The notes under the pieces are model-generated. The model was not told the origin of the DNA, ran no database searches, and saw nothing but the letters and a program-made list of their open reading frames with translations. Positions 35,054 through 64,000 of a DNA stretch of 64,000 bases are shown here, in pieces. The DNA comes from Oribacterium sp. oral taxon 078 str. F0262. GTDB taxonomy: Bacteria > Bacillota > Clostridia > Lachnospirales > Lachnospiraceae. The first letter of the stretch is position 1. The number at the start of each line of letters is the position of its first letter. Both the position numbers and the translations under genes were made by a program. The DNA lies in the NCBI RefSeq assembly GCF_000160135.1, contig NZ_GG729933.1:502816-566815 (forward strand), given 5' to 3'.

Positions 35054-35203
35054 TGTTGCGGTATCTTATAATTTCGAAGTGCCTTGCTTCGGAAGGCGGC
35101 TCTCTTCGAGAAAACTCGGAGACGCTCCGAGCATGCCTGATGGCAGACCTTGCGTTTAGGGCTCGGCTTCGGATGAGAGTGGATCGATCTGCCGTTTGCC
35201 CGC

Positions 35204-35300
35204 CCAACGCAGGACGCTCTCGCTCCGACTGCCGCGGCCAGCGGCGCATAAGCGATTTTAAGAAACCAAATCGCTAAGCGCCGGGGCGTCAGACGGCCTG
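35204..35300 (+). repeat. 97-bp direct repeat, left copy
   Basis: Matches 51696-51791 almost base for base with the same orientation: both run from CCAAC-CAGGACGCTCTCGCT to GGGGCG-CAGACGGCCTG (a few mismatches and a one-base gap). It contains an AGCGATTT/AAATCGCT hairpin (8-bp stem). Confidence 0.88.
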
Positions 35301-35344
35301 CTTTTCGGCGTACAAAACGTCAGATCGGCTACAGGAATCGGAAG

Positions 35345-35916
35345 TGCTCCGAGTTTGCCATCAGGCAGACTTCTACGCTTATGCTTCGCTTCTTCGCAGC
35401 TCAGCGACTCGGCTTCGCCCGGGAGGCATCAGCCGACCTCCCTTCGGGAGGCACTTCTCTCCGAGAAGTGGTCAAGAACGCTCCGAGTCTGCCTGATGGC
35501 AGACTTCTGCGCTTATGCTTCGCTTCTTCGCAGCTCAGCGACTCGGCTTCGCCCGGGAGGCATCAGCCGACCTCCCTCCGGGAGGCACTTCTCTCCGAGA
35601 AGTGGTCAAGGACGCTCCGAGTCTGCCTGATGGCAGACTTCTGCGCTTATGCTTCGCTTCTTCGCAGCTCAGCGACTCGGCTTCGCCCGGGAGGCATCAG
35701 CCGACCTCCCTCCGGGAGGCACTTCTCTCCGAGAAGTGGTCAAGGACGCTCCGAGTCTGCCTGATGGCAGACTTCTGCGCTTATGCTTCGCTTCTTCGCA
35801 GCTCAGCGACTCGGCTTCGCCCGGGAGGCATCAGCCGACCTCCCTCCGGGAGGCACTTCTCTCCGAGAAGTGGTCAAGAACGCTCCGAGTCTGCCTGATG
35901 GCAGACTTCTGCGCTT
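35345..35916 (-). repeat. 134-bp hairpin-rich tandem repeat array, family A (left array)
   Basis: Landmark AGTCTGCC...GGCAGACT recurs at 35352, 35486, 35620, 35754 and 35888, a period of exactly 134. A degenerate copy lies at about 35078-35155. On the minus strand each unit reads as the family described at 50817-51662: hairpins AGTCTGCC-ATCA-GGCAGACT, CACTTCTC-GGA-GAGAAGTG and CCTCCC-GRA-GGGAGG, in that order. The orientation is opposite to the two other arrays. 134 is not a multiple of three, so open frames through it are incidental. Confidence 0.93.
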
Positions 35917-37424: not shown

Positions 37425-37454
37425 ATGATTCCAGTGTCGAAAGTCTGCTTCCAC

Positions 37455-38021
37455 GACATGCTTGCATGAGAGAGGAAGCGAGACTTTAGGACACGCCCCC
37501 GCATGAGCAAGGAGCGGGCCGAAGGGCCGCGGGAATGCGAATGAGGGGGGTAGCATGGCGAGAGCAGCGAAGCGGCGAAGCCATGCGGAATCATAGCAAG
37601 CTTAAGCCGAAGAGACATGCTTGCATGGGAGAGGAAGCGAGACTTTAGGACACGCCCCCGCATGAGCAAGGAGCGGGGCGAAGGGCCGCGGGAATGCGAA
37701 TGAGGGGGGGAGCATGGCGAGAGCAGCGAAGCGGCGAAGCCATGCGGAATCATAGCAAGCTTAAGCCGAAGAGACATGCTTGCATGAGAGTGGAAGCGAG
37801 ACTTTAGGACACGCCCCCGCATGAGCAAGGAGCGGGCCGAAGGGCCGCGGGAATGCGAATGAGGGGGGTAGCATGGCGAGAGCAGCGAAGCGGCGGAGCC
37901 ATGCGGAATCATAGCAAGCCCGGGAAGAGCCATGCTTGCATGAGAGAGGAAGCGAGACTTTAAGACACGCCCCCGCATGAGCAAGGAGCGGGCCGAAGGG
38001 CCGCGGGAATGCGAATGAGGG
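37455..38021 (+). repeat. 159-bp tandem repeat array, family B
   Basis: The CATGCTTGCATG start of the unit recurs at 37455, 37614, 37773 and 37929 (periods 159, 159, 156): three full copies and part of a fourth. Each unit holds CATGC-TT-GCATG, a GCGGGCC-GAAG-GGCCGC type hairpin and a long GCATGGC...GCCATGC stem. Because 159 is 53 codons, the minus strand has an open 215-codon frame repeating SHSRGPSARSLLMRGRVLKS, with no ribosome site or signal I can support; I take it as incidental. The 805-bp gap holds only the promoter and this array. Confidence 0.92.
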
Positions 38022-46424: not shown

Positions 46425-47926
46425 AGATCTATTTTATCAATCCGCCCTTTCGGGCGGAATACGGAAAGTTTTCCAGGGAGTCGAGGAGTCCTGCCGTGAC
46501 GAAGAGCGGTGCGCTCTATTACCCGCTCTGGCTGATCTATGCGGCGGTCTGGGCGGAAAAGCAGGGGCACAGCGTGGAATTTCTGGATGCGCCCGCGAAG
46601 CCTCTCAACGAGGCGGAGTCCCTCTCTCTCATCCGAGAGAGGGCGGAGGGCTGCCGCCTCTTTGTCCTGGATACCAGCACGCCCTCCATTTATCGGGATA
46701 TCGCCTTTGGAGAGGCGCTGAAGGCCCGCTATCCGGAGGCCTTTATCGCCCTGGTGGGGACGCATCCGACGGCTGTGCCGGAGGAGACACTTCGGCTTGG
46801 GCCCGGGATCGATCTCATCGCGAGGAGGGAGTACGACTTTACGATCAGCCGACTCGCCTCTCTTATCGAGGGGAGTGCCTCCCGGGAGGAGGCGCTCTCC
46901 GGGCTCTCCGGGATTTTGGGGATAAGCTTTCGGGACGGGGCGGGGCTGATCCATCATAATCCGGACGCGCCCTATATCGAGAAGCTGGACGAGATCCCGA
47001 TGGCCGCGGAGTTTATCCGACGGCGCTTAAACTACCGGGATTATTTCTTCCCGGCCTCGGAGTATCCGGAGATTCAGATCTTCACGGGGCGGGGCTGCCC
47101 CTGTCACTGTACCTTTTGCGTCTATCCGCAGACCATGCACGGGCACCGCTACCGCCTTCGCTCTCCGGAGAATGTCGTCTCGGAGTTTTCCTATATTGCG
47201 GAAAATTTCCCGGATGTGCGGGAAATTGTACTGGAGGACGACACCTTTACGATCGACAGGAGGAGGGTGGAAGCGATTTGCAGGCTCCTCATCGAGCGGG
47301 GGCTTCAGAAGCGCTTCCGCTGGCTTTGCAATGCGAGAGTCAATACCCTGGACCTTGATACCATGAAGCTTATGAAAAAAGCGGGCTGCCGTCTGCTGAT
47401 CCCCGGGATCGAGAGCGGAAACCAGGGGATTTTGGATGCCATCAAGAAGGGGACGACACTCAGCCAGGTGGAGCGCTACATCGAGGACAGCAGAAAGGCG
47501 GGGCTCTTGGTTCACGCCTGCTATATGGTGGGAAATCCCGGGGAAAATCGGGAGACGATAGAGGAGACCCTTCGCCTTGCGCTCCGTCTGAATACGGATA
47601 CGGCGCAGTTCTTTCCTCTGATCCCTTATCCGGGGACAGAGGTCTATCGGCTTGCGAAGAAAAACGGCTGGCTCAGGGCATCGAGCTATGAGGATTACTG
47701 CAAGCGGGACGGCACACACAATACCGTGCTGGATCTCCCGGAGCTGAGTGCCGAGGAAATGGTGAACTTCTGCGACAGGGCGAGAAGGCGCTATTATCTG
47801 AGACCGCGCTACATCCTGCACCGCCTGTGGATGGGGCTAAAGGACCCGGCGGACCTCGTGCGCTCTCTGAAGGCCTTCGGGAAGCTCTGGCGCTATCTTC
47901 TGAAGAGAGGAAACGGAAAGGGATGA
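46421..47926 (+). CDS. B12-binding-domain radical SAM protein
   Basis: 501 residues. The N-terminal B12-binding-like fold (about 1-150; landmarks NPPFRAEYGK, VGTHPTAVPEE) is followed by the radical SAM core with CPCHCTFC near residue 226-233 (C-x3-C-x2-C), and a C-terminal region with the YMVGNPGENRETIEETLRLA pattern. Enzymes of this type do methylations, rearrangements or other radical steps on unactivated carbons. Placed directly behind a phosphoglycosyl transferase and before glycosyltransferases, it may modify a sugar or lipid of this glycan; the reaction is unknown. The cobalamin is not proven by sequence. Confidence 0.85.
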   Translation: MKIYFINPPFRAEYGKFSRESRSPAVTKSGALYYPLWLIYAAVWAEKQGHSVEFLDAPAKPLNEAESLSLIRERAEGCRLFVLDTSTPSIYRDIAFGEALKARYPEAFIALVGTHPTAVPEETLRLGPGIDLIARREYDFTISRLASLIEGSASREEALSGLSGILGISFRDGAGLIHHNPDAPYIEKLDEIPMAAEFIRRRLNYRDYFFPASEYPEIQIFTGRGCPCHCTFCVYPQTMHGHRYRLRSPENVVSEFSYIAENFPDVREIVLEDDTFTIDRRRVEAICRLLIERGLQKRFRWLCNARVNTLDLDTMKLMKKAGCRLLIPGIESGNQGILDAIKKGTTLSQVERYIEDSRKAGLLVHACYMVGNPGENRETIEETLRLALRLNTDTAQFFPLIPYPGTEVYRLAKKNGWLRASSYEDYCKRDGTHNTVLDLPELSAEEMVNFCDRARRRYYLRPRYILHRLWMGLKDPADLVRSLKAFGKLWRYLLKRGNGKG

Positions 47927-47989
47927 ACGGTTCTGCCGCTTCCGAACGCTTCTTTCTGCCGGATGCTCTCAGTGGGCGGGGAGCAAGGC

Positions 47990-48195
47990 CCGGCAGAGGC
48001 AGGAGGCCTGCAGCCTTCACGCCGGGGGTATCCGTCTTTCCATGAACAGGGGAAGAGCCGGACGGAAATCGGCGGCCTGCAGCTATGCGTGATGGCTTAT
48101 TCGTCTTTCCGCGGGCGGGGGAAGAGCTGAGCTAAGAGCGGCAGCCTGCAGCTATGCGCACTGATTTATTGGTCTTTCTGCGGGCAGGGGAAGCG
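47990..48195 (+). repeat. About 70-bp imperfect tandem repeat, family F
   Basis: The GGCCTGCAGC core recurs at about 48004, 48074 and 48143, followed by TATGCG(T/C), a TTATT(C/G)GTCTTTC(C/T)GCGGGC tract and AGGGGAAG. Units are less alike than in the other arrays. The 300-bp gap 47927-48226 holds no gene. Confidence 0.6.
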
Positions 48196-48226
48196 TCGGA
48201 CGAGGAAAGAGGAGGATGGAGTCATA

Positions 48227-49180
48227 ATGGAGCGGGTGCTGGTCCTGCTGTCGACCTATAACGGAGAGCGTTATCTCAGGGAGCAGCTTGCAAGTCTCTT
48301 TTCCCAGGAGCTCCCCGAGGGGACAGAGCTTCGCATCCTTGTGCGGGACGATGGCTCTTCGGACGGCACGACAGCGATACTTCGGGAATACGAGGAGGAG
48401 GGGAGACTTTCTTTTTACCGCGGGGAGAGAAATCTGGGTCCGGCCGGGAGCTTTCTCTCTCTCATGAAGAGGGCGGAGCACTATGATTGGGGGGAGGAGA
48501 GAGCGGAGGCACGTACTTATTATGCGCTCTGCGATCAGGATGATGTCTGGCTCCCGGACAAGCTCTCGAGGGCTCTCTCCCTCCTCTTTGGGACGGGAAA
48601 GGAGGAAGCCGCGCTCTATTATGGGCTTCCCCGCCTGGTGGATGCGGAGCTTCGTCCCCTGCCGCTTCGGAGGGACGCGAAGGAGAGGATGCTCGATTTC
48701 GCATCGGCCCTCATAAAGAGCAATTCTACGGGCTGCACAATGCTCTTTACACGGGCGCTTCTTCTTAAGATCAACCGCTCGGAGCCGGATACGGAGAAGA
48801 TTACGATGCATGATGAGTGGATCCACAAGGGCTGTCTTGCGATCGGAGGGAGGCTTATCTTTGATGAAGATACGCCGATTCTCTACCGGCAGCATGGGAA
48901 CAACGCGGTGGGCTGCCAGAGCTCCGGGGGAGCGGTGCTTAAGCGCTATCTCCATTCCCTGCTCCATCCCGATCGGATTCACAGTGAGATGGCAGGGGAG
49001 CTTCTCCGCGCTTTTTCCCGTGATATGAGTCCGCTCAAGAGGGAGCTTTCGGAGGAGGTTGCCTTTTATCGGAGGAGTCCCGGCGCGTCGCTCCGGCTTT
49101 TCTTCGATAGGAGGATCCGGACCGCCTACCGAAAGAGGAATGTTCTCTTTCGCCTCGCTGTGCTGCTTCGGATCTTTTGA
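48227..49180 (+). CDS. GT2 glycosyltransferase, rhamnosyltransferase-like
   Basis: 317 residues. GT-A fold: VLVLLSTYNGERYLREQLAS, VRDDGSSDGT and the DQDDVWLPDKL metal-binding site. The pattern is that of rhamnosyltransferases of Lachnospiraceae and streptococcal cell-wall polysaccharides. Extends the lipid-linked glycan in the cytoplasm. ATG at 48227 follows GAGGAGGATGG. The next gene begins 12 bases after its stop. Confidence 0.87.
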   Translation: MERVLVLLSTYNGERYLREQLASLFSQELPEGTELRILVRDDGSSDGTTAILREYEEEGRLSFYRGERNLGPAGSFLSLMKRAEHYDWGEERAEARTYYALCDQDDVWLPDKLSRALSLLFGTGKEEAALYYGLPRLVDAELRPLPLRRDAKERMLDFASALIKSNSTGCTMLFTRALLLKINRSEPDTEKITMHDEWIHKGCLAIGGRLIFDEDTPILYRQHGNNAVGCQSSGGAVLKRYLHSLLHPDRIHSEMAGELLRAFSRDMSPLKRELSEEVAFYRRSPGASLRLFFDRRIRTAYRKRNVLFRLAVLLRIF

Positions 49181-49192
49181 GCGGGGGGAAGG

Positions 49193-50089
49193 ATGGAGAG
49201 CTTTTATCTTATTTCTGTGCTCTATCAAAAAAAGCTCCGGGCGCTTCGCTCCCTCCCGCAGTTTATCAGGCTCTGCGGAGAGTATCCGGAGACGGAGATC
49301 CTGATTTTTGATAATTCCGAGGACGCCGCGCTCCTAACGGAAAACCGGGAGGAGGCTAAGAGATGTGGAATATCCTATCTCTCAGAGGGGAGGAATCTCG
49401 GTCTCTCCGCGGCCTACAACCGCTGCCTTCTGGAGCTTGACCAAAGAGAAAAGGACAGGGCATCTTCCGGCGGGGCTCCTTCTGAAAAAGGGGAGAATGC
49501 GGAGGGGAATTATTGGATTTTTCTATCGGATGACGACAGTCTTTTCTCGATGAAATATCTGAGAAATGTCCGGGAGAGCTGCCTTGAGGGAAGAGAAGCG
49601 GAGAAAGCTTCGGGAGGGGAGAAATTTCCGGAGCTTCGCGCGGGGATGGTCCGCTCCCTGCGCGGCCCCCTCTCCCCGAAGAAGTCTTATCGGCTTTTTG
49701 AGAGGGCAGGGGACTTCGTGAGAGCGCCGGGGCATTACCGGGGGCTCTACTGCATCAACAGCGGGCTCTGCATCTGCCGAAGCCTTCTCAGAGAGCTCGG
49801 AGACTTCGAGGAGAGGATCTTTCTCGATATGCTGGACTACTGGCTTATGGACCGGCTTCGGGAGAAGGGACTCGACCGCTTCTGGATCCTTCCGGGGGAG
49901 ATCCGGCAGGATTTTTCCGGCGCCTCCTTTCCCGGGAGGGAGAGAGCGGAGAGAAGATACCGGATTTATCGGAGGGACTTTCAGCTTTACTGCCGCATCA
50001 CGGGGAGGAGCAGATTGTTTTCCTTTCTTATGCTTTTTAAGAGGAGGCTTCGTCTGAGCTATGACGAAATTCTACATCGTGTGCCATAA
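49193..50089 (+). CDS. Glycosyltransferase of GT2 type
   Basis: 298 residues. Shortened GT-A layout: SVLYQKKLRALRSLPQF, FDNSEDAALL, EGRNLGLSAAYNRCL and the DDDS metal site in FLSDDDSLFS. A long charged insert (about 95-120) interrupts it. It overlaps the DUF4422 gene by 29 bases, so the two are translated together. Donor and acceptor sugars unknown. Confidence 0.8.
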   Translation: MESFYLISVLYQKKLRALRSLPQFIRLCGEYPETEILIFDNSEDAALLTENREEAKRCGISYLSEGRNLGLSAAYNRCLLELDQREKDRASSGGAPSEKGENAEGNYWIFLSDDDSLFSMKYLRNVRESCLEGREAEKASGGEKFPELRAGMVRSLRGPLSPKKSYRLFERAGDFVRAPGHYRGLYCINSGLCICRSLLRELGDFEERIFLDMLDYWLMDRLREKGLDRFWILPGEIRQDFSGASFPGRERAERRYRIYRRDFQLYCRITGRSRLFSFLMLFKRRLRLSYDEILHRVP

Positions 50090-50858
50090 GCTCTCAGAGC
50101 TCCCCGCGCTTCCGGGCTATGTGCCGATCCTCGTCGGGGCGAAGGACTTTTCGATCCCCGGTTCCCTCCGGGACGACAGCGGGGAGGAGATCTCACGGAA
50201 GAATCCGAACTTCAACGAGCTCACCGCGCTCTACTGGATCTGGAAGAATGACCGCTCGGATTTCGTCGGCCTCTGCCACTACCGGAGATATTTTATGAGG
50301 GGGCTGTCCTCCCGGCGCTATCTGACGATTTCGGAGGCGGAGCGGGATCTTCGGAGACATGACATCATCCTTCCGGAGCCGATCACGGGCCTTCGGACCA
50401 CGGTGCGGGAGCTCTATCTTCGGACAGGGGGAAGAGAGAAGGATCTGGAGACGCTGGAGAGCCTGATCGAGGAGCGCCTTCCGGATGATTACCCGGCCTA
50501 CCGGGAGCTGATGGGCGGGTATTCCGCCTCCTATTACAACATGGCTGTCATGCCGAGAGCTCTTCTTGAGCGCTACTGCGGCTGGCTCTTTCCGCTCCTC
50601 TTTGAACTGGAACGGCGGATCGACCTCTCGGGACGAAGCGAGCGGGAGGGGAGAGTCTTCGGCTTTCTCGCGGAGCGTCTTCTGAATGTCTTTGCGAGGA
50701 CGGAGCGTCTCCGTGTCCGCCGCCGCCCGGTTTATGTCCTGGGAGAGAAAAACTACAGCCTTCGTATCCTCTCGGAGAGAGCGAGACAGGGACTTTGCTC
50801 CCTCCTCCGTGAAGAAAGCGCAGAAGTCTGCCATCAGGCAGACTCGGAGCGTCGTTGA
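50061..50858 (+). CDS. DUF4422-family glycosyltransferase
   Basis: 265 residues with the family signature NPNFNELTALYWIWKN followed by DFVGLCHYRRYF near residues 50-80. DUF4422 proteins are single-domain glycosyltransferases of capsule and rhamnan loci. The last 13 residues (SAEVCHQADSERR) are encoded by the beginning of the tandem repeat array, so the C-terminus probably arose when the repeat inserted or expanded over the original end. Overlaps the preceding gene by 29 bases. Confidence 0.87.
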   Translation: MTKFYIVCHKLSELPALPGYVPILVGAKDFSIPGSLRDDSGEEISRKNPNFNELTALYWIWKNDRSDFVGLCHYRRYFMRGLSSRRYLTISEAERDLRRHDIILPEPITGLRTTVRELYLRTGGREKDLETLESLIEERLPDDYPAYRELMGGYSASYYNMAVMPRALLERYCGWLFPLLFELERRIDLSGRSEREGRVFGFLAERLLNVFARTERLRVRRRPVYVLGEKNYSLRILSERARQGLCSLLREESAEVCHQADSERR

Positions 50859-51662
50859 CCACTTCTCGAAGAGAAGTGTCTCCCGAAGGGAGATCGGCTG
50901 AAGCCACCCGGGCGAAGCCGAGTCCTTCGCTTCAAAGAAGCGAAGAAAAAGCGCAGAAGTCTGCCATCAGGCAGACTCGGAGCGTCGTTGACCACTTCTC
51001 GAAGAGAAGTGTCTCCCGAAGGGAGATCGGCTGAAGCCACCCGGGCGAAGCCGAGTCCTTCGCTTCAAAGAAGCGAAGAAAAAGCGCAGAAGTCTGCCAT
51101 CAGGCAGACTCGGAGCGTCGTTGACCACTTCTCGAAGAGAAGTGCCTCCCGAAGGGAGGTCGGCTGAAGCCACCCGGGCGAAGCCGAGTCCTTCGCGAAG
51201 CGAAGTCGAGCGTAGAAGTCTGCCATCAGGCAGACTCGGAGCGATCTTGACCACTTCTCGAAGAGAAGTGCCTCCCGGCGGGAGGTCGGCTGAAGCCACC
51301 CGGGCGAAGCCGAGTCCTTCGCGAAGCGAAGTCGAGCGTAGAAGTCTGCCATCAGGCAGACTCGGAGCGTCCTTGACCACTTCTCGAAGAGAAGTGTCTC
51401 CCGAAGGGAGATCGGCTGAAGCCACCCGGGCGAAGCCGAGTCCTTCGCTTCAAAGAAGCGAAGAAAAAGCGCAGAAGTCTGCCATCAGGCAGACTCGGAG
51501 CGTCGTTGACCACTTCTCGAAGAGAAGTGCCTCCCGGAGGGAGGTCGGCTGAAGCCACCCGGGCGAAGCCGAGTCCTTCGCTTCGGAGAAGCGAAGAAAA
51601 AGCGCAGAAGTCTGCCATCAGGCAGACTCGGAGCGTCATTGACCACTTCTCGAAGAGAAGTG
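50817..51662 (+). repeat. 133/126-bp hairpin-rich tandem repeat array, family A (right array, 7 copies)
   Basis: The landmark AGTCTGCC...GGCAGACT recurs at 50825, 50958, 51091, 51217, 51343, 51476 and 51609 (periods 133, 133, 126, 126, 133, 133). Each unit holds four near-perfect hairpins: H1 AGTCTGCC-ATCA-GGCAGACT, H2 CACTTCTC-GAA-GAGAAGTG (50860-50878), H3 TCTCCC-GAA-GGGAGA (50879-50893) directly abutting H2, and H4 CTTCGCTTC-AAA-GAAGCGAAG (50925-50945). GACTCGG and CCGAGTC (50841-50847, 50918-50924) can close the unit. The first unit forms the end of the DUF4422 gene. Confidence 0.94.
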
Positions 51663-51695
51663 GGGTTTTGGCGCCGTATCTGACGATCGGTCGAT

Positions 51696-51791
51696 CCAAC
51701 ACAGGACGCTCTCGCTTCGACTGCCGCGGCCAGCGGCGCATAAGCGATTTACAGAACCAAATCGCTAAGCGCCGGGGCGGCAGACGGCCTG
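51696..51791 (+). repeat. 97-bp direct repeat, right copy
   Basis: Same orientation as 35204-35300 and almost identical; here it separates the family A array from the 109-bp family C array. The two copies are 16.49 kb apart. Confidence 0.88.
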
Positions 51792-52240
51792 TTTATGAAT
51801 CGGTCGATCGTCAGGGCGGCGGGAGGCAGTTTCCGGCCGAGAGCTGCGCGGGGGACTTCTCATTATGGCGCTGCCAGTCGCCGGGGGAAAAGACGGCCTG
51901 TTTATGAATCGACCGATCGTCAGGGCGGCAGGAGGCAGTTTCCGGCCGGGAGCTGCGCGGGAGATTTCTCTTTATGGCGTTGCCAGTCGCCGGGGCGGCA
52001 GACGGCCTGTTTATGAATCGGTCGATCGTCATGGCGGCGGGAGGCAGTTTCCGGCCGAGAGCTGCGCGGGAGATTTCTCTCTATGGCGCTGTCAGTCGCC
52101 GGGGCGGCAGACGGCCTGCTTATGAATCGGCCGATCGTCATGGCGGCGGGAGTCAGTTTCCAGCCGGGAGCTGCGCGGGAGATTTCCCTTTATAGCGCTG
52201 CTAAGCGCCGGGGGAAAAGACGGCCTGCCTGTGGATCGTC
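51783..52240 (+). repeat. 109-bp tandem repeat array, family C
   Basis: GACGGCCTG starts at 51783, 51892, 52001, 52110 and 52219, a period of exactly 109. Units contain GATCGTCATGGCGGCGGGAG-like tracts, CAGTTTCCGGCC and AGTCGCCGGGG. One unit start also occurs beside the left 97-bp repeat (35292). With the arrays at 50817-51791 it fills the 1.4-kb gap to the next gene; open frames through it on both strands show no recognisable domain. Confidence 0.92.
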
Positions 52241-52305
52241 ATGGCGGAATGGCCGCGGTATAGTTGTCTTCTGAGGGTATTTGGGACTATGTTCCGGGAG
52301 GGTTC

Positions 52306-53361
52306 ATGGGATTTTCAGAGCTTCGGGAATGGGCCAGGACTTCGGCGCTGATGGGGAAGGGCTATCGGCTTTTGAAGGAGGGGATTCGGAGAGAGCGGAG
52401 TAGGAGGCTGAGCTCCGGCCCGCATCGCTTTCTGAATCGTCAGAGGGGGGAGAGGATCCTTCTCCTTGTGATCGCCGGCTATAAGCCCTGGCTGTACCGA
52501 CTGGTCTTTCCCAGGCTCAAGAGCTTTCTCCCCGATTTCCCGATGGATCTATGTCTTCTATCTTCCGGCCGATTCGATCCGGAGCTTTCGGAGCTTGCCA
52601 AGGACTGGGGCTGCTCCTATCTTTCAACGAAGAGAAACTGTGTGACGCTGGCACAGAATATGGCGATCGAACTTCATCCGGAGGCGGAATTCATCTTCAA
52701 GATGGATGAGGATATCTTTGTGACGAAAGGCTGCTTCGAGGCGCTCCTTTCTCTCTACCGGAGAGTGGAGGAGGAGGGGCCCTATCGTCCGGGCTTTACG
52801 GCTCCACTGATCCCGGTCAACGGCTACGGCTATCGGAGGCTGCTCACGGAGCTCTCGCTTCTTGAGCGCTATGAGGAGAAATTCGAGCGGCCGCTCACCG
52901 CGGCCGGCAGGGAATACCGGATTGAGTCAGATCCCGCTGCGGCCCGCTTCTTCTGGGGAGAGGGCGGGGAGGTTCCGCCGCTCGATGCGCTGAACCGGCG
53001 TTTTTCCGGAGAGGGACTTCGCTACGAGGCCTGTCCGGTGCGCTTTAGTATCGGTTTCATCCTTTTCCGAAGGAGTCTCTGGGAGGAGATGGGGAGATTT
53101 CCAGTCCGGGGCGGAAGCTGCATGGGCCTGGACGAGGATCGGCTCTGCAGCTTTTGTATGACACATTCCCGCGCGATTCTCGTCTCTGAAAATACCGTTG
53201 TCGGTCATTTCTCCTTCGGAAAGCAGACGGAGGGGATGAGAAGATTTCTCGAAGAGCATCCGGAGCGCTTCCTGAGCTCGGGGGAGGAAGCGGAGAGGGA
53301 TAGGAAGGAGAACGAGAAAGGGCTGAAAGAAGACGAGGGGAAGAGGGAGGAAACGCGATGA
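52306..53361 (+). CDS. GT-A fold glycosyltransferase of unknown linkage
   Basis: 351 residues. LLLVIAGYKPWLYRLVFPRL is followed by a DxD-type metal motif in FKMDEDIFVTKGCFE, as in GT-A enzymes; FSIGFILFRRSLWEEMG and the acidic C-terminus follow. Only general family assignment is possible. ATG at 52306 follows GGGAGGG; a TTG in frame farther upstream lies next to the repeat array and is not used. It overlaps the next gene by four bases. Confidence 0.7.
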   Translation: MGFSELREWARTSALMGKGYRLLKEGIRRERSRRLSSGPHRFLNRQRGERILLLVIAGYKPWLYRLVFPRLKSFLPDFPMDLCLLSSGRFDPELSELAKDWGCSYLSTKRNCVTLAQNMAIELHPEAEFIFKMDEDIFVTKGCFEALLSLYRRVEEEGPYRPGFTAPLIPVNGYGYRRLLTELSLLERYEEKFERPLTAAGREYRIESDPAAARFFWGEGGEVPPLDALNRRFSGEGLRYEACPVRFSIGFILFRRSLWEEMGRFPVRGGSCMGLDEDRLCSFCMTHSRAILVSENTVVGHFSFGKQTEGMRRFLEEHPERFLSSGEEAERDRKENEKGLKEDEGKREETR

Positions 53362-54662
53362 AGCCAATCATGAAAAAATGCAATTTGGAGGAGGCAGCGG
53401 GCCTGCTCTATCGTTTGGGCTTTTCTTTCTCCTTGCTTTTTCTGCTGTTTTCCAGCTCTTTTGTGAAGAAGCTTCTTCTGGACGGTCCCGCCTATCGGCT
53501 TCTCTTCCTGCTCCCGCTCTTTCTCCTTCTTCTTTCCGAGGCGCTTCGCTTTCTCTTTCTCCGGGAGTACCGGCTCTCGGATCTTTTGTCCTGGGCATTG
53601 ATCCTCTTTTCCTCCTATCTTTCGATTCGAAATGACCAGCGTGCCCTGATCCACGGCTTCCTTTTGATCTACGGGGCGAGAAAGCAGGATATCCGCCGTC
53701 TCTTCCGGATCGCGGCGATCCTCCTCTCTGCGGGAGCATTCTCTATTGTTCTTCTCTCCTTCTCCGGAATCATCCTCTACCAGATCGGGGAGAAGGACGG
53801 CATCCTTCGGCACAGTATGGGATTTTCCTATCCTCTCGTACTCCCGGCCTACCTTCTCACGATCACGATGCTTTCGCTTTTGCTCCTTTCTCCGCAGGAA
53901 GAAGCGGGAGGGACAGCAGTGCCCGCCGGGAAGGCTGGGGAGTCCGGTTCGGGGCAGCCTCTGGGAGGATGGGGAAAGTTGCTTCTCTCTTTTCTCCTTT
54001 TCTTTAATCTGACAGTCTATCGTTGGTGCATCGGGGATCTCTCCCGAGGCATAAGTCTTCTCTTCCTCCTCCTTTTCCTCTATTTGAGCACAGGATTTTC
54101 AGAGAAGACGGAGAAGCTGCTCTCCATTTTGGACCGTCTCAGCCTCCTCTCCTATCCATTCTGCTTCCTCTTAAGCCTCGCCGCGGCCTTTTTCTATCGC
54201 CCCGGGGCGGGAGGCTGGCTTGGCAGGCTGAACAGTCTCTTAAACCGACGGATCGAGTATTCGCAGCTCTCTCTCTTTCGCTATGGCTTCGGTCTTTTCT
54301 CCCGGAGGATCAGCTGGGTCGGGGCCGGGACGGATTTAAACGGCACAGCGGTCCCGGGGCAGTATGATTATGTGGACAATGTCTATCTCTCCGTTTTGCA
54401 GCGCTACGGGCTTCTCTTTACCCTGCTCTCGCTTTTCCTTCTCTTTCTTGCGATGCGGTACTGCTGCCGAAGGAGATGGAGGCTTGCACTTTACTTTTTC
54501 GCCCTCCTCTCCTTTCACGGACTGCTGGAGGACAAGATCTACCTCATTGAGTACAATACGCTTCTTCTTCTGATCGGACCGGCCTTCTCGGAATTTCTCG
54601 AGGAGCTGAGAATCTCTGTGGGGAAGAAGCGGCAGAAACAGGGATACCGTATCAGACCCTGA
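53358..54662 (+). CDS. Wzy-like glycan polymerase (membrane protein)
   Basis: 434 residues, about 10-12 hydrophobic segments. FYRPGAGGWLGRLNSLLNRRIEYSQLS followed by YGFGLFSRRISWVG and YVDNVYLSVLQRYGLLF resembles the large loop of Wzy-type polymerases of gut Firmicutes (VDN-YL motif). It would link lipid-linked repeat units on the outer face. ATG at 53358 overlaps the preceding gene (ATGA). The start codon of the next plus-strand gene is far away (55865) because the next gene is reversed. Confidence 0.75.
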   Translation: MKPIMKKCNLEEAAGLLYRLGFSFSLLFLLFSSSFVKKLLLDGPAYRLLFLLPLFLLLLSEALRFLFLREYRLSDLLSWALILFSSYLSIRNDQRALIHGFLLIYGARKQDIRRLFRIAAILLSAGAFSIVLLSFSGIILYQIGEKDGILRHSMGFSYPLVLPAYLLTITMLSLLLLSPQEEAGGTAVPAGKAGESGSGQPLGGWGKLLLSFLLFFNLTVYRWCIGDLSRGISLLFLLLFLYLSTGFSEKTEKLLSILDRLSLLSYPFCFLLSLAAAFFYRPGAGGWLGRLNSLLNRRIEYSQLSLFRYGFGLFSRRISWVGAGTDLNGTAVPGQYDYVDNVYLSVLQRYGLLFTLLSLFLLFLAMRYCCRRRWRLALYFFALLSFHGLLEDKIYLIEYNTLLLLIGPAFSEFLEELRISVGKKRQKQGYRIRP

Positions 54663-61875: not shown

Positions 61876-62969
61876 GGCTGGGAGTTGATGCGCGTCCTCT
61901 GATGGAAAAGAAGTCCGGGATCGGAACCTATCTGGACGCGATGCTCTCGGAGCTTTTGGAGCTTTCCCGGGAGCTTGAGCTCTATCTCATATCGGACGGG
62001 GAGATCTGTTTTCCGGAGCATCCGAGAGTCCGTAAGATTCGCTATAAGGGCTTTCGCTTTCTGCCGAATACCTTGTATTTTGAGTTCCTTCTCCCCCGCT
62101 TTCTCCGGAGAGAGGGAATTGTTCTGGATGCCTTCTGGGGGACGCAGCAGTTTATGCCTCTGGGACTTCCGAAGGGATGCCGGAGGATTCTCACGGTGCA
62201 TGATCTCACCTACCGGGTCTATCCGAGTCTCATGGATCGAAAGCTTCTTTTCATGCTGCGGCTTTTCGGCGGGAGCTCCCTTCGGGAGGCGGACCGGATC
62301 GTCACGGTCTCCCGTTATACGAGGAAAACCTTGCTCTCATACTATGAGAGGGAGTGCAGCGGGAAAGAAATTCAGGTGATCTATCCCTCCGCGACGACGC
62401 ATCCCCTTTCTGAGGAGCAGCTCCCGGAGGGGCTCTCCGAAAAGAAATACATCCTTTTTATCGGGATTTTGGAGCCGAGAAAGAATCTCGATGTCCTGAT
62501 CGATGCCTTTCAGGGGCTGAAGGAAGGCGGACTGAAGCTTGTCGTCTGCGGAAAATGCGGCTGGAACTATGAGGAGACCCTGCGTCGGATCGAGGCGGAC
62601 CCGGATATCCTCTATCCCGGCTTCGTCTCAAATGAGAGGAAGCAGCTCCTTCTCGCAGAGAGTCTCTGCCTTGTGATGCCCTCTCTCTACGAGGGCTTCG
62701 GCACGCCCGCGGTGGAGGCCATGAAGAGCGGCGCGACAGTCGTGGCGGCGGACAATTCCTCTCTCTCGGAGGTCGTGGGAATTCCGGAGCTCCTGTTTCC
62801 GACGGGGGATGCGGGAGCCTTACGAGAGATCCTCCGAAGGCTCCTCGGGGATCCCTCCTTTCGAAAGGAGATGGAGGAGAAAAGCAGGAGAAGGGGAGAG
62901 GATTTTTCGTGGAAGAAGGCGGCGGAGGAATTTCTGGAGCTGATCGGAGGGGAGTATGAAGAAGCGTGA
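61872..62969 (+). CDS. GT4 glycosyltransferase (GT-B fold)
   Basis: 365 residues. GVDARPLMEKKSGIGTYLDAML (start of the GT-B N-half), LTVHDLTYRVYPSLMDRK, FIGILEPRKNLDVLIDAF and the donor site MPSLYEGFGTPAVEAMKSG. Close in layout to WbpZ/MtfB mannosyltransferases. It overlaps the hypothetical gene by 14 bases. Confidence 0.9.
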   Translation: MRLGVDARPLMEKKSGIGTYLDAMLSELLELSRELELYLISDGEICFPEHPRVRKIRYKGFRFLPNTLYFEFLLPRFLRREGIVLDAFWGTQQFMPLGLPKGCRRILTVHDLTYRVYPSLMDRKLLFMLRLFGGSSLREADRIVTVSRYTRKTLLSYYERECSGKEIQVIYPSATTHPLSEEQLPEGLSEKKYILFIGILEPRKNLDVLIDAFQGLKEGGLKLVVCGKCGWNYEETLRRIEADPDILYPGFVSNERKQLLLAESLCLVMPSLYEGFGTPAVEAMKSGATVVAADNSSLSEVVGIPELLFPTGDAGALREILRRLLGDPSFRKEMEEKSRRRGEDFSWKKAAEEFLELIGGEYEEA

Positions 62970-63834
62970 GCTGATCTTTTTTCTTCCTGCTGTGCTTTTG
63001 ATCCTGGCTCTCTTTTTCGGGGAGAGGCTTGACCGAATGATTCTCCCGGAGTATCGCTTGCCGCACTATGAGAAGCTCCTTTCCCAGAGAGCCTTGAGCC
63101 AGTATTTCCTCTCGGATCCGGGGGCGTCCTCAGAGAATCTCTTCATCGTCGATACGCAGTCTCGCTCCTTTGGGGATCTCCATATGCAGATAGAGGGGGA
63201 TGGGACGATCCTCCTCTTTGGAAAAAACGGGGAGCAGGATCTCACGATTCCGCTTTCCGTTCGGACAGATCTTCCGGATGGGGAGTACCGCTTCACAGAC
63301 GGAGGAGCGACGGTGCCCGGCCTTGTGACGGTTTACGGTACGGCGGGGGGGACGGCCGGGACGGAGCCGGGACTTATGGCCATGCCGGACTATCCGGATT
63401 TCTCGGTGAATCGGTCGAAGTATCAGGAGTATTGGTTCGGCTTTTGGGTGAAGGCCGGGGCGGAGCTTCCGCCCACCCGCTTTCTGCCGCTCCTTAAGCG
63501 GGCCGATCAGGATATGGGGAGCTACAGTCCTGCGAGGATCTCGCAGCCCGGGAAATTCCGGGCCTATCCCTATCTGATCCGGGAACTCACAGAGGAGGAG
63601 CTTGGGAGCCTAAGCCCCGCGGACTGGGAGCTTTTCTATCGGAATCTTCGCTTCCAGTACAAAAACCATTATCTCTGGGTCTCTCTGAGGCTTCCAAACG
63701 GGAGGGGAGTTCAGTTTCTGAGAGGAGATCCCGAGCTTTCGAGGATCGGGGAGATGGACGACTGGGGGAGAGTCAGAGAGCCGGAGCAGAGCTTTCGTTT
63801 TACGGGGAAAGAAACTCCGCTTCAGGTGGAATGA
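62956..63834 (+). CDS. Membrane-anchored or secreted protein of unknown function
   Basis: 292 residues with one N-terminal hydrophobic segment (about 7-23, IFFLPAVLLILALFFG) and no lipobox, so it is anchored or released outside. The rest is Gly- and Asp-rich, beta-like (DGTILLFGKNGEQDLTIPLS, PDGEYRFTDGGATVPG, YWFGFWVKAG), without a domain I recognise. It is the last gene before a family A array, whose first unit begins eight bases after the stop. Confidence 0.6.
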   Translation: MKKRELIFFLPAVLLILALFFGERLDRMILPEYRLPHYEKLLSQRALSQYFLSDPGASSENLFIVDTQSRSFGDLHMQIEGDGTILLFGKNGEQDLTIPLSVRTDLPDGEYRFTDGGATVPGLVTVYGTAGGTAGTEPGLMAMPDYPDFSVNRSKYQEYWFGFWVKAGAELPPTRFLPLLKRADQDMGSYSPARISQPGKFRAYPYLIRELTEEELGSLSPADWELFYRNLRFQYKNHYLWVSLRLPNGRGVQFLRGDPELSRIGEMDDWGRVREPEQSFRFTGKETPLQVE

Positions 63835-63837
63835 GCG

Positions 63838-64000
63838 TAGAAGTCTGCCATCAGGCAGACTCGGAGCGTACTTGACCACTTCTCGAAGAGAAGTGTCTCC
63901 CGAAGGGAGATCGGCTGAAGCCACCCGGGCGAAGCCGAGTCCTTCGCTTCGAAGAAGCGAAGCAGAGCGTAGAAGTCTGCCATCAGGCAGACTCGGAGCG
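63838..64000 (+). repeat. Family A hairpin repeat, third array (runs off the window)
   Basis: AGTCTGCC...GGCAGACT occurs at 63842 and 63974 (period 132), with CACTTCTC-GAA-GAGAAGTG, TCTCCC-GAA-GGGAGA and CTTCGCTTC-GAA-GAAGCGAAG between. Same orientation as the right array and opposite to the left one. Copy number cannot be counted because the sequence ends. Confidence 0.93.

Follow-up and report, generated by a model that had tools for sequence, protein, structure and literature searches.

A structured interspersed repeat of Oribacterium whose diverged copies mostly begin at stop codons, and its possible origin as a 3'-untranslated element

The tandem array and its neighbours

The window, i.e., the whole stretch of DNA that was analysed, covers 64,000 nucleotides of the genome of Oribacterium sp. 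oral taxon 078 str. F0262 (G000 in the following). At the 3' end of a DUF4422 gene it carries a tandem array (50815-51662) of a unit here named U, with a period of 133 bp (126 in two short units) and about 6.5 copies, amounting to six full units and a partial one made of the hairpins H1 and H2. Further U copies, and palindromic modules of a second kind (R2), lie elsewhere in the window:

50061..50858, + strand: gene upstream of the array, DUF4422 (PF14393); its frame enters unit 1 and its stop TGA lies at 50856-50858
50817..50949, + strand: U unit 1 (133 bp), with H1 50825-50844, H2 50860-50878, H3 50879-50893, H5 50894-50921 and H4 50925-50945
50950..51082, + strand: U unit 2, core identical to unit 1
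51083..51208, + strand: U unit 3, H3 outer pair C-G, short H4 (6-bp deletion)
51209..51334, + strand: U unit 4, H3 C-G with loop GGC, short H4
51335..51467, + strand: U unit 5, H3 T-A
51468..51600, + strand: U unit 6, H3 C-G with loop GGA
51601..51662, + strand: U unit 7, partial, H1 and H2 only; R2 sequence begins shortly downstream
51695..51821, + strand: R2 palindromic module after the array, its apical slot holding a small hairpin AGCGATTT..AAATCGCT
35082..35150, − strand: decayed partial U copy
35204..35329, + strand: R2 palindromic module adjoining the inverted U array
35346..35916, − strand: second U array, inverted, about 4.3 copies, linker GCTGAGCTGCGAAGAAGCGAAGCATA
63834..64000, + strand: third U array, running past the window end (locus L028, 3 copies)

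Each full unit contains five hairpins in the order H1, H2, H3, H5, H4. H1 reads AGTCTGCC ATCA GGCAGACT and H2 CACTTCTC GAA GAGAAGTG; H3 pairs CCTCCC or TCTCCC with GGGAGG or GGGAGA, H5 is formed by TCGGCT..AGCCGA with an inner GCC/GGC, and H4 is a linker hairpin that varies among copies, leaving a common U core of about 108 bp. A previous sequence-only reading of this DNA had assigned four hairpins to all seven units: it missed TCGGCT...AGCCGA in the six full units, and the seventh stops after H2. Its account of H3 was accurate, the outer pair being T-A in the units with TCTCCC/GGGAGA at 50879, 51012 and 51397 and C-G in those with CCTCCC/GGGAGG at 51145, 51271 and 51530, with no mixed unit and with the loop variants GAA, GGC and GGA all seen in the array; the H3 pairing (here C-G) and the GGA loops of H2 that it described in the inverted array near 35345 were also recovered. 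The four-base stretch after H1 varies as stated, and ACTT, one of the variants listed, is absent from 50815-51662 and present in the copy at 63834. The paired loss of three bases from each arm of H4 in two units proved instead to be a contiguous six-base deletion (TTCAAA) across the loop of CTTCGC-TTCAAA-GAAGCGAAG, hence one event rather than a paired change. Within the array a two-sided change occurs in one pair only, that of H3.

The fold of the unit beat all of 200 dinucleotide shuffles, with z scores of −6.87 as DNA, −6.44 as sense RNA and −4.84 as antisense RNA. An explanation of the array as an ordinary tandem repeat, kept uniform by gene conversion and unequal crossing-over, its paired changes linked by descent with no structure selected, agrees with the single two-sided pair and the single deletion in H4, and gene conversion between units, already raised as an alternative by the sequence-only reading, stays likely for the H3 pattern. 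As an explanation of the whole family it is very improbable, since differing stems pair fully in other species and genera and the arm-swap control given below speaks against it, though it can hold for H3 in this array.

Other repeats were observed in the window. A tandem repeat of 109 bp (51770-52227, + strand, 4.2 copies) takes in the right half of the R2 module after the array, a second one has a period of 137 (543-843, 2.2 copies), and a third, diverged, a period of 69 (48029-48203). The Clostridiales-1 RNA (RF01699) forms a tandem array at 37426-38021 (+ strand), beginning directly after TTGACA-17-TATGAT; elsewhere, several copies of this RNA follow promoter-like boxes and two (L254, L260) stand shortly before an ATG (by eye). 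With 65 matches in G000, 41 in G016, 37 in G005 and 36 in G014, the RNA of this Rfam entry amounts to a high-copy repeat in the genus.

The U family and the pairing of its stems

U is an interspersed element in the window's genome, where BLAST with the 133-bp unit gave at least 80 matches, whole or partial (40 of 63 candidates scored). The same search returned 21 matches in G005, the other genome of the genus rich in U, and none in 39 other relatives. Named relatives of serS are closest in Oribacterium sp., at 83% identity, so the genus of these genomes is probably Oribacterium. A covariance model of U (R1) had matches in 13 of the 17 genus genomes, 11 of them besides G000 and G005, and none in G008. 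Across 299 sampled genomes of the family Lachnospiraceae, with at most 13 candidates per genome scored under strict filters, R1 matched in G000 only and a broader model (R2) in at least four genomes, namely G000, G008, G267 and G325, the last two representing two other genera and G325 carrying three copies in tandem; these models are distinct from the palindromic module that shares the name R2. Exact-pattern scans gave no match in named genomes and none in viral contigs.

The collected loci contained 57 full-length copies, 12 of which, being identical, were left out of alignment A1 to give 45 distinct ones; the window copy at 63834 is the same as L028 and was not counted again. The diverged set of the genus comprised all 17 R1 matches of the 11 other genomes and four more from G005, and one of the seven model matches in G325 was left out of the locus set. 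By eye, U stands downstream of serS only in G000 among 16 loci compared, and downstream of glpK only in G005 among 17; the protein neighbours of 10 G005 loci gave no match above 42% identity with those of the G000 loci (26 vs. 124 proteins). The amplified U appears to behave as a mobile repeat in the window's species.

Among the 45 distinct copies, which were found by sequence, 97.9% of the cells pair and two-sided change affects 7 of 31 pairs (26 cells), a level reached by none of 500 shuffles. In 27 matches from diverged loci (L273, L274, L246:638 and L268:597 left out before alignment A4) 98.5% of the cells were paired and two-sided change extended to 29 of 31 pairs, figures that lean towards pairing because the matches were picked by a structure model and the alignment was fitted to it. 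An arm-swap test that needs no fitted alignment agrees with them: over 26 copies, stem 1 formed 7.92 of 8 pairs with its own arms vs. 5.89 with arms exchanged between copies, the longest stem 2 formed 7.50 vs. 3.50, and the longest stem 4 formed 7.77 vs. 3.91. Hairpin pairs per element averaged 27.6 (least 14) in 34 elements, compared with 7.7 (most 21) in shuffles. Stems 1, 2 and 4 of the diverged copies differ in sequence yet pair, and most of these copies keep AGYGNAG, the ATCA loop, connectors of the CGACCGATATGGC or CGGAGCG type and the hairpin CCCGAAGGG or a similar one; across species the connectors stay, and the stems are replaced and pair again. The earlier claim that structure is kept thus stands on other copies and other genomes, the window by itself offering the single H3 pair, and relatives in the sets examined did not break the pairing as often as they kept it.

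The selected form may be RNA or DNA. It is quite possible that U is a mobile palindromic repeat at the DNA level with no RNA role, whose hairpins form in single-stranded DNA during replication and whose stems owe their perfect pairing to template switching from one arm to the other (quasipalindrome correction). The near absence of G-T intermediates favours this explanation. The hairpin finder, which tolerates few mismatches, counted 938 Watson-Crick pairs, 2 G-T, 0 A-C and 7 other mismatches, where a G-T to A-C ratio of 2 to 0 is too small to decide, and the fitted alignment gave 12 to 2 under a structure model that itself favours G-U. A near absence of wobble pairs is unusual for RNA under structural selection. 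Recent copies point the same way, since the 99 distinct ones of G000 and G005 show no strand preference of one-sided G-T over A-C (37 vs. 29 cells, p 0.39), with 84 other mismatched cells vs. 65 compensated. Also in keeping with structure in DNA are the GNA loops found in H2 of 72 of 80 copies and in H3 of 50 of the 62 copies with a readable loop, GNA being a class of stable DNA triloops.

The same explanation holds that copies enter or adjoin other palindromes, and two kinds of nesting are indeed observed. The R2 palindrome has 58 matches, in G000 only among the 17 genus genomes. As read by eye in loci chosen for U, the apical slot of its 34 left arms is occupied by U in 15 and by a small hairpin in 18, one arm being truncated; in nine of the 34, a co-directional stop lies 25-52 bases before the start of the match, and the composite of R2 and U folds as one long branched hairpin in which the outer arms of R2 pair. 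In at least six loci of G005 the H3 loop of U encloses a further module, V. This module consists of a variable-stem hairpin, a fixed hairpin AGCC-RCGC-GGCT and another variable hairpin (L198-L227, L228-L230), and its connector, with two mismatches at most, was found in 9 of the 17 genus genomes, the pattern read backwards in none of them. Of 34 modules read for alignment A2, L203:1546 was left out; in the remaining 33, 96.2% of the cells pair and 72 change on both sides vs. 20.1 in shuffles, none of 500 being as high, while for further pair types 30 of 500 shuffles were as high as observed.

The Y1/RAYT transposase (PF01797) has no match in either G000 or G005, which counts against a DNA-level repeat. 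Among the nine V-bearing genomes it occurs in four and not in five, and the V connector was seen in none of 10 Y1 loci examined. Mobilisation of the RAYT/IS200 type was rejected on these grounds, the enzyme being absent from the two U-rich genomes and its presence not following V. As a separate observation, G004 has 30 Y1-transposase matches, many of which are fragmentary and close to the ends of contigs, and these may represent an amplified IS200-type family; no link to U or V was seen. No close empty site was found from which a target-site duplication of U could be read, and the V insertion at glpK in G014, compared by eye with G010 and G015, showed no clear one.

Most diverged copies begin at a stop codon

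Stop-codon position was assessed in 32 diverged copies, i.e., the 21 genus loci and 11 from the search with model R2, taking copies first or alone at their place (as read by eye), open reading frames of at least 80 codons and a range of −10 to +20; the close copies of G005 (L054-L063) were left out, and stop-codon position had played no part in finding the 32. In 25 of them a sense reading frame stops between −8 and +15 bases relative to the 5' end of the element, and in the antisense control a frame ends at the 3' end in one of 32. Of the seven copies that fail, four are among the six of G008. The first letters of the element often supply the stop themselves, as TAG in AGCGTAG or TGA in AGTGA. 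A DNA-level repeat could be found there because insertion after stop codons harms least and the 5' end of U supplies a stop, but such an excess of sense over antisense placement is not readily explained by it.

U also recurs at the same genes. A fabG-like gene (short-chain reductase) is followed by it in seven genomes (G004, G010, G011, G013, G014, G015, G016), the gene of a DALR-domain protein with an argS-like C-terminus in G002, G004 and G014, that of a TPM-domain protein in G004, G009 and G015, and that of a protein ending in WDE, with no Pfam hit, in G003, G004, G008 and G013; Pfam was run on one representative of each group, and the other members were grouped by their C-termini, by eye. 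That U is kept at the same genes in as many as seven species, its connectors fixed, likewise fits poorly with a purely DNA-level repeat. When three intergenic gaps were set side by side for G010, G014, G015 and G016, no alignment could be seen by eye in two, and that of glpK is nearly identical in G010 and G015, so part of the recurrence may reflect recent descent; the U-bearing G002, G003 and G008 share genes with other genomes of the set. At glpK itself, the stop is followed by U in G005, by tandem V in G014 and by neither in G010 and G015.

In the amplified sets the tie to stop codons is a weak one. By codon-score gene calls, the start falls between −42 and +5 relative to a sense stop in 9 of the 44 U clusters of G000. 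These include the window array, whose unit 1 contains the stop of the DUF4422 gene, the cluster after serS and the array at 63834, which opens on the final stop-codon base of the gene at 62956-63834; the upstream neighbour is co-directional in 26 of the 44. Among the 10 close-copy loci of G005, glpK (L058) and L059 start at most 7 bases from a stop and L056 lies 8 bases from a weakly called gene, U being away from a stop codon in the rest. That most G000 copies do not abut a stop is again in favour of a DNA-level repeat.

A family of transcription terminators is an improbable explanation, despite two features that suggest it: after serS, U stands where a hairpin is found in several relatives (by eye), and many V modules have a terminator-like look, T-rich DNA often following their last hairpin. 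In a scan of 47900-53400, however, no sense-strand U hairpin of the array was followed by a T tract, the terminator-like sites in the array lay on the minus strand only, all six with the tail CACTTCTCTT, and downstream of U in L268 and L280 no sequence qualified as a terminator by the rule of the scan. U as a terminator was rejected, the array having no terminator-like site on the plus strand.

Affinities of U and its possible role at mRNA 3' ends

Against Rfam 15, U, R2 and V in the window and 20 loci gave no match at gathering score; with E values up to 1, the only hit over a U copy in 15 diverged-U loci was freshwater-2, at 30 bits vs. a gathering score of 49.9. Nor did U match the Clostridiales-1 model. 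The GTAG tag that REP sequences carry unpaired at one end is not constant in U, column 5 reading GTAG in 26 of 45 rows and GCAG in 19, with AGTGGAG, AGCGGAG and others in relatives, and the ends AGCG.. and ..GAGTC do not pair as the terminal inverted repeats of a MITE would. Since no Rfam entry matches and these defining features of REPs and MITEs are lacking, U is placed as a structured interspersed repeat, nearest in its behaviour to GTAG REPs, BOX and bcr elements.

GTAG REPs and their BIMEs are, like U, palindromic and present in high copy number, mostly 3' of genes (PMC3733652). In some cases they lie within larger palindromes, and they often supply the TAG stop of the flanking open reading frame (PMC3733652); these two features lend weight to a DNA-level repeat. 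U differs from them in its length of about 108 bp, several hairpins, conserved connectors, inconstant tag and wholesale replacement of stems between species, as well as in lacking a RAYT in the two genomes richest in U. BOX of Streptococcus pneumoniae, compared by description, is similarly modular, with a variable number of tandem modules, is presumed mobile and likely affects co-transcribed genes; a stop-codon lock was not found described for it in the text available (PMC3049150). The bcr1-bcr18 repeats of Bacillus cereus are, like U, interspersed in UTRs, and bcr10 and bcr18 are predicted to be functional as RNA; in two strains mRNAs include 84 of 165 and 62 of 155 copies; as far as that source goes, U is set apart by its stop-codon anchor in most diverged copies and by its presence at the same genes in several species (PMC3446304). 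The Clostridiales-1 RNA (PMC2864571) resembles U as a structured element of high copy number in the same genomes that also forms tandem arrays, yet has another sequence and fold and, in the copies examined, starts just after promoter-like boxes, not at stops. The STAXI motif, treated in the same source, shares with U a structure repeated in tandem and the question of RNA or single-stranded DNA; its units are pseudoknots near DNA-processing genes, and its UUCG loops argue for RNA (PMC2864571). Among the open-licence papers searched none was recognised as being about U, and, the TAG stops of GTAG REPs apart, the available portions of this literature were not found to describe the stop-codon position for such a repeat (PMC3733652).

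Tentatively, we rank first the reading in which U is a structured element of 3' UTRs, with a probable action on the 3' ends of mRNAs, and has turned into a mobile repeat in the window's species, and second a DNA repeat with template switching, itself a serious possibility. The sense position of the diverged copies at stop codons, the conserved connectors and the recurrence at the same genes argue for an RNA, without carrying it beyond a provisional preference; the weak lock in the amplified sets and the near absence of wobble pairs speak against it. According to the 3'-UTR reading, the home of U would be the 3' untranslated region, beginning in sense at the stop codon of the upstream gene, where its fixed parts would be the short connectors, the ATCA loop of H1 and the hairpin CCCGAAGGG or similar, and its stems would be free to change as long as the arms pair. 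U may then be transcribed with the upstream gene and, folded as RNA, work at the 3' end of the mRNA, where it would most likely hinder 3'-to-5' decay or form a structure opened and closed by the terminating ribosome. Its amplification in the window's species, with the many BLAST matches, tandem arrays and sites in the loops of other palindromes, could have proceeded by some enzyme or by replication slippage and template switching, and many newer copies would have moved off the stop-codon position. The two readings are compatible, in that template switching may supply the paired changes which selection then keeps.

A bolder version is possible, though we hold it more doubtful: U would represent a new Lachnospiraceae class of stop-codon-anchored 3'-UTR RNA, its connectors fixed and its stems interchangeable, adjusted to mRNA decay and to the ribosome at termination; in one lineage it would have become a selfish repeat, forming arrays and lodging within other palindromes. 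Small interspersed hairpin repeats occur widely in bacteria, and it is usually hard to say which are parasites and which belong to mRNAs. The U family shows both faces, standing at the stop codons of the same few genes in several species and being amplified in one, and its stem turnover between fixed connectors offers a direct test of RNA selection vs. DNA template switching as the source of compensatory change, with a bearing on covariation-based prediction of RNAs in repeats. If the bolder version is true, a regulatory RNA and a mobile element would here be the same thing.
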